DNA of 32,018 nt. Origin: a virus. How positions within the stretch are numbered: position 1 is the stretch's first letter; each line of letters starts with the position of its first letter. The notes beneath the pieces were generated by a model, which did not search any database, was not told the origin of the DNA, and worked only from the letters and a program-made list of their open reading frames with translations. The translations under genes were made by a program, and so were the position numbers. Below are positions 25,760 to 26,726 of this stretch, in pieces. The DNA lies in IMG/VR virus record IMGVR_UViG_3300034375_009452, positions 1 to 32,018 of that record, one strand, 5' to 3'.

Positions 25760-26062
25760 TCACCACTTTACCTTATTCGCCCAGTAGGCGGCAGACATTT
25801 TGCCCTTTGCAATATTCTTTGCATGACGAGCTTTGAAAGAACGACGACGAGCAGCATATGCTTTGCTCTCACCTTTTTTCTTTGGAGAACCTTTTACGCC
25901 TTGCTGACCAAATCGAATAGTTTTAATCTTGCTGCCAACTTTTGCGACAACAACATGAGATTTTTTTGCATGACCTGGAGTTCTCTTGGGCTTATTAAAA
26001 GCAGAGACTCCAGCTCTTTTGAGAGCGGGATGTTTTTTTCTACCGCCTTTTCGTTTTTTCAT
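25760..26062 (-). CDS. Conserved basic phage protein
   Basis: 100 residues, strongly basic (many Lys/Arg/His). Recognisable phrases are ALKRAGVSAFNKPKRTPGH, KSHVVVAKVG, KTIRFGQQGVKGSPKKKGES, SFKARHAKNIAKGKMSAAYW and WANKVKW. I know this pattern from marine T7-like and other phages, where it is an uncharacterised family (I believe DUF6321). Its stop overlaps the next start region. The charge suggests nucleic-acid binding, but no function is established. Confidence 0.8.
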   Translation of the reverse strand: MKKRKGGRKKHPALKRAGVSAFNKPKRTPGHAKKSHVVVAKVGSKIKTIRFGQQGVKGSPKKKGESKAYAARRRSFKARHAKNIAKGKMSAAYWANKVKW

Positions 26063-26247
26063 ATTATATAATCTAAATAACGGATATTTGTGCTTTGATC
26101 GAGTTTACCGTTCTTGTCATAAGTTATGACAGTATAGATTGTATCTGTTACTTTATATTTTGCATCGGGAGCTTTGGCAATGGATTGTACGGTGTAATCT
26201 TTTTCATAAGAAGTAGGTACAGTAGCAGCTATAGAATTAACTTCCAT
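26059..26247 (-). CDS. Small hypothetical protein
   Basis: 62 residues from ATG 26247 (MEVNSIAATVPTSY), preceded by GGGAGAAG about 5 bases upstream. An upstream ATG at 26286 is in frame but lies inside the basic gene before it and has no ribosome site. The body is beta-like (DAKYKVTDTIYTVITYDKNG, IRYLDYII). It starts one base after the stop of the basic 57-residue gene and ends with an ATGA overlap into the next. Function unknown. Confidence 0.62.
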   Translation of the reverse strand: MEVNSIAATVPTSYEKDYTVQSIAKAPDAKYKVTDTIYTVITYDKNGKLDQSTNIRYLDYII

Positions 26248-26248
26248 T

Positions 26249-26422
26249 CTACTTCTCCCGTTTTTTGGCCCCGCGTTTGATATCATTACGAGTTGCAGCT
26301 GAAAGAGGTTTAGCTGTCCTCTTCTTCCTCGTCGAGGTCTTCTTCCTCGTCGTTGATCTCCTCTTCGTAGTCGTCGAGCCAGTCTTTCTTCTCGTCGACT
26401 TTTTCCTGCGTCTTACTGCCAT
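26249..26422 (-). CDS. Hidden highly basic protein overlapping an acidic gene
   Basis: 57 residues from ATG 26422 (MAVRRRKKSTRRKTGSTTTK...), with 26 Lys/Arg and only 2 acidic residues, ending LSAATRNDIKRGAKKREK. Its first 113 bases overlap the acidic C-terminal tail of the preceding gene in another frame, so the same codons read as GAC/GAG-rich acid in one frame and ACG/AAG/AGG-rich base in the other. A ribosome-site-like GGGAAGAG lies 8-10 bases upstream of ATG, and the gene ends one base before the next ATG. The non-overlapping C-terminus (positions 37-57) makes chance unlikely. A DNA-binding or condensing virion protein is an inference. Confidence 0.7.
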   Translation of the reverse strand: MAVRRRKKSTRRKTGSTTTKRRSTTRKKTSTRKKRTAKPLSAATRNDIKRGAKKREK

Positions 26423-26534
26423 CCCCGTTCTCTTCCCAGTATTTCATTAACTGGCTGCGGCTTTTGAATCTAGCAATTTCTTCATTCTTATCATCCATAA
26501 GAATCCAAGCCCTATTTTTATAAGCTATGTTCAT
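26310..26534 (-). CDS. Small protein with very acidic tail
   Basis: 74 residues. The N-terminal half is ordinary (MNIAYKNRAWILMDDKNEEI, then RFKSRSQLMKYWEENG), the C-terminal half is extremely acidic (WLDDYEEEINDEEEDLDEEEEDS). DNA of the acidic part is GC-richer than its flanks because it also encodes the basic 57-residue protein in another frame. It starts one base after the tiny membrane-protein gene. Function is unknown; acidic tails in phages can act as DNA mimics or chaperones, with no evidence for either here. Confidence 0.7.
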   Translation of the reverse strand: MNIAYKNRAWILMDDKNEEIARFKSRSQLMKYWEENGDGSKTQEKVDEKKDWLDDYEEEINDEEEDLDEEEEDS

Positions 26535-26535
26535 T

Positions 26536-26634
26536 TTATTCGCCCTTATTTAGGTCTACGAGGTTGTGACCCCACTTGGCCCATGCAATATGTGCAAACC
26601 AGCCAATAACTGCTCCAATTAGTATGTCAATCAT
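26536..26634 (-). CDS. Tiny membrane protein (32 residues)
   Basis: MIDILIGAVIGWFAHIAWAK and a hydrophilic end (WGHNLVDLNKGE). One membrane helix is visible. Its ATG overlaps the stop of the basic 31-residue peptide (ATGA), and AGGAG lies 7 bases upstream. Position and coupling support a real gene; the role is unknown. Confidence 0.62.
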   Translation of the reverse strand: MIDILIGAVIGWFAHIAWAKWGHNLVDLNKGE

Positions 26635-26726
26635 TTCATGCTCCTCTTTTTCTTCTTGCCGCGCTTTTTTGCAGCTTTCGATGGTCTACCACGTTTTTTA
26701 CCGTAAGTTCCTTTACCGTAAGGCAT
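26631..26726 (-). CDS. 31-residue basic peptide with AT-hook-like core
   Basis: It reads MPYGKGTYGKKRGRPSKAAK and continues with a Lys/Arg run. The RGRPS segment flanked by basic residues is an AT-hook-like core. I know similar MPYGKGTYG peptides from marine podoviruses and myoviruses, where they are uncharacterised. It is coupled to the tiny membrane protein by an ATGA overlap. Confidence 0.72.
   Translation of the reverse strand: MPYGKGTYGKKRGRPSKAAKKRGKKKKRSMK

Follow-up and report, generated by a model that had tools for sequence, protein, structure and literature searches.

A single stretch of phage DNA encodes, in two frames of the same strand, the Asp/Glu-rich end of one small protein and the Lys/Arg/Thr-rich beginning of another. 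The window, by which we mean the whole stretch of 32,018 nucleotides analysed here, is part of a tailed phage, with terminase, portal, S78 protease/capsid, tape measure and tail genes. The two-frame overlap of the acidic and basic tails is genuine and unusual, and it belongs to a known general kind. As an overall explanation we favour, with fair confidence, two same-strand genes in which an acidic tail has grown over the tail of a DUF5824 gene, the window carrying a core-deleted copy of the latter. The elements of the locus are as follows.

26310..26534, minus strand: gene of the acidic protein, 74 amino acids, an open reading frame whose domain has homologues in eight loci
26249..26422, minus strand: gene of the basic protein, 57 amino acids, the Lys/Arg/Thr N-terminal tail and the C-terminal basic stub of a core-deleted DUF5824 protein
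26310..26422, minus strand: overlap, 113 nt including the acidic stop, 37 basic codons, basic frame +1 relative to the acidic one
26423..26442, minus strand: 20-nt segment preceding the basic ATG, containing a weak Shine-Dalgarno-like AGAG (anti-SD duplex energy -4.5)
26284..26287, minus strand: deletion junction, approximate, CGT-AA-TGATATC, with a 2-bp AA microhomology, as compared with L010/L096
26059..26247, minus strand: downstream gene (MEVNS...), 62 codons, starting one base past the basic stop

The coordinates, lengths and composition which the initial annotation gave for the 74- and 57-residue pair, including the extent of the overlap (26310-26422), proved correct on recount. The basic ATG begins on the middle base of a codon of the acidic frame, which sets the +1 frame. 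The 57-residue ORF contains 26 Lys/Arg and 2 Asp/Glu; residues 39-74 of the acidic ORF comprise 20 Asp/Glu and 4 Lys/Arg. The overlap spans 98-113 nt, or 80-113 nt over eight related pairs. As had been noted, the basic stop lies one base before the next ATG (26247-26245), that of the MEVNS... gene. A mechanically called ORF at 26059-26286 starts 13 codons early; relatives start at MEVN, which is 26247 here.

Judged by its relatives, the basic frame is a gene, as originally proposed: they share the tail, which is followed by a conserved DUF5824 core (PF19141). In the divergent relative L002, an acidic ORF is overlapped likewise by a 114-residue basic ORF with the same tail and a DUF5824 core. 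This protein reaches 27.4 bits against the DUF5824 Pfam profile (cut-off 25); L006 (27.8 bits) and L075 (36.2 bits) also exceed the cut-off, and L009 (23.8 bits) falls below it. A search with the L002 basic protein returned at least 574 relatives among 599 stretches, and the best 80 of 574 were used. All 28 of the 28 aligned DUF5824 members match phrog_28338 (PHROG 28338). The full-length relatives thus belong to the DUF5824 family; the core-less 57-mer of the window matches no family at E 1, and the acidic overlap occurs in a small part of the family only. In 15 pairs formed by six overlapped relatives, the core showed dN of 0.013-0.089 against dS of 0.46-2.36, which indicates strong purifying selection. 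Free-standing DUF5824 genes in named phages are annotated as hypothetical proteins, and our literature search found no paper naming DUF5824. Isolates that carry such a separate gene include HTVC111P, HTVC202P and HTVC026P.

The 57-mer had been taken for a natural protein; instead, it is the product of an in-frame core deletion in a protein of ~115 residues. Both the window and L001, a 101,258-bp IMG/VR contig differing from it by 1 base in 10,222, lack 174 bp (58 codons) in frame. The 174 bp are present, and the core is intact, in the contig of L010/L096, which matches the window at 99.93% identity along 12,192 bp; the 57-mer is therefore a truncated allele. The core is also found in L093 (L006), at 93-98% identity around the deletion site. 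Besides the window, one IMG/VR contig (that of L001) carries the exact junction. The existence of such a near-identical contig with a core would also suit an assembly artefact, the phage itself encoding the full-length protein, and the window and L001 may share one sample. However, the deletion is present in two records, and a collapsed repeat is unlikely since the flanking microhomology amounts to just 2 bp; we regard an artefact as improbable.

A more serious contender is that the 57-residue ORF is a dying remnant in the window phage, functionless after core loss, its DNA being kept by the acidic frame only. We rate this just short of an even prospect. The deletion removed the whole folded core, and its junction is seen only in the near-clonal lineage of the window and L001. 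No second DUF5824 copy was detected at E 1 in the window or the 101-kb L001 record, in a search of limited sensitivity since the DUF5824 model scores this subfamily only just over the cut-off. Against decay, the in-frame deletion leaves the start, the tail and the basic stub open, and it is too recent for decay to show. Under the explanation that we favour, the basic protein of the window phage has probably lost its core's function, and the tail region would persist because the acidic frame needs it and the deletion is recent.

The relative age of the two frames was considered across 81 DUF5824-core loci on 80 contigs (L002 and L004 lie on one), taken from the best 80 of at least 574 relatives. 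In seven of these loci (six contigs) an acidic upstream ORF spans the tail; L010 is left out of this count since its contig ends inside the overlap and the acidic N-terminus falls outside it. With the DNA pattern at the acidic stop, the acidic/basic-tail overlap was found in 10 IMG/VR contigs, adding L089 and L095. When 54 distinct cores were placed in a tree, the main group's six overlapped rows came together as one clade (100/95), with L095 lying elsewhere; the tree is based on 77 columns and many of its forks are poorly supported, and at least two changes are forced. As DUF5824 is widespread and the long acidic overlap is restricted to one well-supported group and L095, the acidic tail is probably the younger frame. 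The simplest reading makes it an extension overprinted on a basic tail that already existed. This inverts the initial annotation, in which the basic gene was the overprint: the relatives, their upstream ORFs, the tree and the third-position G bias described below all point to the acidic tail as the overprinted frame. The same annotation had named acidic homologues with a stop-broken basic frame as counter-evidence; no such case was seen, as all eight loci retrieved with the acidic N-terminal domain have a basic frame free of stops throughout the overlap, and L095 does too.

Whether the acidic overlap arose twice depends on the core tree and on the homology of the L095 upstream protein, for which an hhalign comparison with the acidic family gave a probability of 8.3% (E 0.0041). 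In other relatives, different upstream genes run some codons into the DUF5824 start and are often basic themselves. A base/base version, the longest of these runs, is seen in L068 (L068:466-759 / L068:644-964), where the upstream basic ORF extends 40 codons (23 Lys/Arg) into the DUF5824 gene in the same relative frame.

A tblastn search of phages with the acidic protein returned no match at E 10 with the low-complexity filter on, and a search of genome contigs with its profile gave 60 stretches, none of them a relative. Named phages matched the DNA of the region in 51 records, none over 80% of the query; these matches come from unrelated phages, extend over 13-20% of the query at its repetitive GAG/GAC stretch, and were set aside as low-complexity coincidence. 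For the acidic protein, hits in PHROG (best E 0.071) and in NCBIfam (best E 0.033, far below the cut-off) were dismissed as chance.

Codon choice in the overlap looks constrained by both frames and fits neither alone. In simulations, the residues of one frame were held and codons were redrawn from nine large window genes (20,000 draws). With the basic residues held, the acidic frame of the window never exceeded 11 Asp/Glu against 20 observed (0/20,000), and the observed Asp/Glu count was reached in 0/20,000 draws in each of the eight pairs. When the acidic residues were held instead, 6.7% of draws left the basic frame of the window without a stop, and 4.5-100% did so over the eight pairs, the test being uninformative in L095 (1.000). 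Hydrophobic residues as few as those observed in the basic frame were obtained in 0/20,000 draws for the window. Absence of stops combined with hydrophobics as few as observed occurred in 0-26 of 20,000 draws across the eight pairs; taken alone, hydrophobic avoidance was not significant in L089 (2,309/20,000) and modest in L006 (792/20,000).

The codons themselves carry the same signature. Aspartate in the window overlap is encoded by GAC eight times and by GAT never, as compared with 97 GAC and 292 GAT (97/389) in the nine large window genes. Over the eight related pairs the overlap contains 39 GAC and 0 GAT, and the upstream parts of the same ORFs contain 4 and 11, respectively. G occupies the third position at a frequency of 0.56 (0.50-0.61) in six tails with the overlap and of 0.16 (0.00-0.38) in 53 homologues of these tails; the other-frame Asp/Glu share is 0.50 (0.42-0.62) and 0.09 (0.00-0.40), the upper end of 0.40 being due to two short tails, L055 and L071. 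These 59 tails are what remains of the 81 loci after removal of those without a recognisable start, tails of <12 codons and duplicates. Substitutions in the overlap affect all three codon positions, with acidic position 2 least affected, and every indel has a length divisible by three. The overlap is highly identical among the window, L007 and L002, which recombination could partly explain.

It might be argued that only the basic gene matters and that the acidic tail, a neutral product of read-through from the upstream gene, owes its sequence to the basic tail, since the upstream ORFs of other relatives also enter the DUF5824 gene in the same frame and are basic there, as for the 40 codons of L068. 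We consider this improbable: redrawing under the basic protein never yields the observed Asp/Glu, the third-position G bias is absent from the 53 homologous tails, and Asp/Glu is retained in the acidic tail despite sequence change.

The reciprocal comparison, in which the acidic residues are held and Lys/Arg are counted in the basic frame, is less telling. For the window a mean of 17.1 Lys/Arg was obtained against 18 observed, and 2,106/20,000 draws reached 18. The observed count exceeded nearly all simulations in five of the eight pairs (90-354/20,000) and did not in three. Basicity alone is thus no evidence for a gene, because the acidic run gives such a Lys/Arg count anyway. The initial claim that the basic frame goes beyond chance stands for its openness (6.7%) and its scarcity of hydrophobics (0/20,000) and lapses for its Lys/Arg content.

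The opposite charges stem in large part from the genetic code, as a GAN-rich run reads Lys/Arg/Thr in the +1 frame. One study reports that, across proteomes, net charge is inverted by a +1 shift (R = -0.45; PMC7084103). The opposite charges first reported for the pair are confirmed as composition; being expected from the code, they do not in themselves indicate partnership. Carried to its limit, this reasoning would make the basic frame a mere shadow of the acidic tail, an idea compatible with the simulated mean and with the generality of charge inversion. We find it highly improbable: in relatives the frame runs on into a DUF5824 core that is conserved and has a low dN/dS, and the overlap lacks GAT codons.

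Mutual binding of the acidic and basic proteins is plausible. A bolder version is a code-built polycation/polyanion pair, in which selection keeps both tails and the acidic protein, made first, neutralises or escorts the basic one. The long overlap would then have at least two origins, one in the main clade and one in L095, and the allele that lacks the core would mean that the tail pair can persist on its own. We regard this version as unlikely.

Same-strand phase-1 overlapping genes are known in bacteria and viruses (PMC2542354; PMC8227390). As in those, the downstream start lies inside the upstream gene in the +1 frame, and one frame is ancestral and the other an extension. The present pair differs in its overlap of 98-113 nt, opposite and near-complementary charge, two disordered tails and selection on both frames. 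In HMGB1 (PMC9931588) and calreticulin mutants (PMC10076285), a +1 frameshift turns an acidic tail basic. The likeness is that an acidic tail is read as basic in another frame; there it is a disease mutation, whereas here both frames are genes side by side. Our literature search for overlapping genes of opposed charge, mostly without full texts, found no description of the present pair. The locus makes the birth and upkeep of overlapping genes traceable codon by codon, because the ancestral frame and the overprint can be compared with homologues that lack the overlap and with a deletion allele in a near-isogenic phage. It also exposes a trap, as the opposite charge of +1 overlapping frames arises from the code and does not prove partnership. 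That phages use this rule of the code to produce matched polyanion/polycation tails is a directly testable idea.

The ribosome-site-like sequence reported upstream of the basic start is present (AGAG), although weak in the window: its anti-SD duplex energy is -4.5, with a median of -3.3 in 27 ORFs of the window and of -2.4 in 500 random 20-mers. Across the eight pairs, the Shine-Dalgarno is strong only in L002 (-8.8) and L095 (-8.3); the other six range from -2.9 to -4.5.

For the acidic protein, AlphaFold2 predicted strands at residues 2-6, 9-13 and 19-23 and a helix at 26-35 and, beyond it, a tail of low confidence (mean pLDDT 66.8), i.e. a beta-beta-beta-alpha domain (residues 2-35) and a disordered Asp/Glu tail from about residue 36. 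The L006 DUF5824 protein was modelled with a low-confidence tail to residue 38 and helices at 39-51, 56-73, 81-94 and 101-104 (73.7). According to these models, the overlap is mainly within two low-confidence tails and the cores are folded. A PDB fold search gave best E values of 2.7 (DUF5824 model) and 1.1 (acidic model), with no match at E 0.001; a sequence search of solved structures gave one match, at E 0.46.

We propose the following working of the locus. The downstream gene encodes a DUF5824 phage protein, disordered and rich in Lys/Arg/Thr at its N-terminus and with a folded core of three helices. The upstream gene encodes a small, predicted beta-beta-beta-alpha protein whose C-terminal end extends through the DUF5824 gene start; in this group of phages, this end probably became an Asp/Glu tail of 28-36 residues via G kept at the third position of Lys/Arg/Thr codons. 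Both proteins would be made from one message, with translation of the basic one beginning at an internal start. The basic tail would bind nucleic acid, perhaps in the head or virion, and the acidic tail would compete for it or shield it. The basic protein would accordingly have a role linked to nucleic acid or to the head, and the acidic one would shield charge.

Two neighbouring genes are relevant to this setting.

25760..26062, minus strand: neighbouring basic protein, phrog_7595, two genes downstream, a module fused with DUF5824 in Methylophilales phage Melnitz-3
26631..26726, minus strand: 31-residue basic protein, near-threshold AT-hook (16.0 bits, cut-off 17.4)

DUF5824 also occurs in the phrog_3041 cytidylyltransferases of the Kyanoviridae phages HTVC008M (68.1 bits) and Melnitz-3 (67.2 bits), compared here by domain content only; there it is one domain of a protein of 596-650 residues. 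In Melnitz-3 (L112:1376-3325) cytidylyltransferase, DUF5824 and phrog_7595, the latter as at 25760-26062, are found in one protein. DUF5824 and phrog_7595 may act together, since they are fused in Melnitz-3 and are separate nearby genes in the group of the window. Links to head genes rest partly on sub-threshold matches: a DUF5824-like stretch (22.2 bits, below the cut-off) lies in an ORF between the portal and capsid genes of Roseobacter phage CRP-823, and another (17.0 bits, below the cut-off) in a 934-residue Salinibacter phage protein. The CRP-823 ORF (L109:2650-3366) is annotated as a major capsid protein, with the DUF5824-like stretch near its end, and a second major capsid ORF follows it. 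Lastly, the near-threshold AT-hook of the 31-residue protein at 26631-26726 is of the GRP type, and a longer form of 56 residues is present in L002 (L002:21-191).
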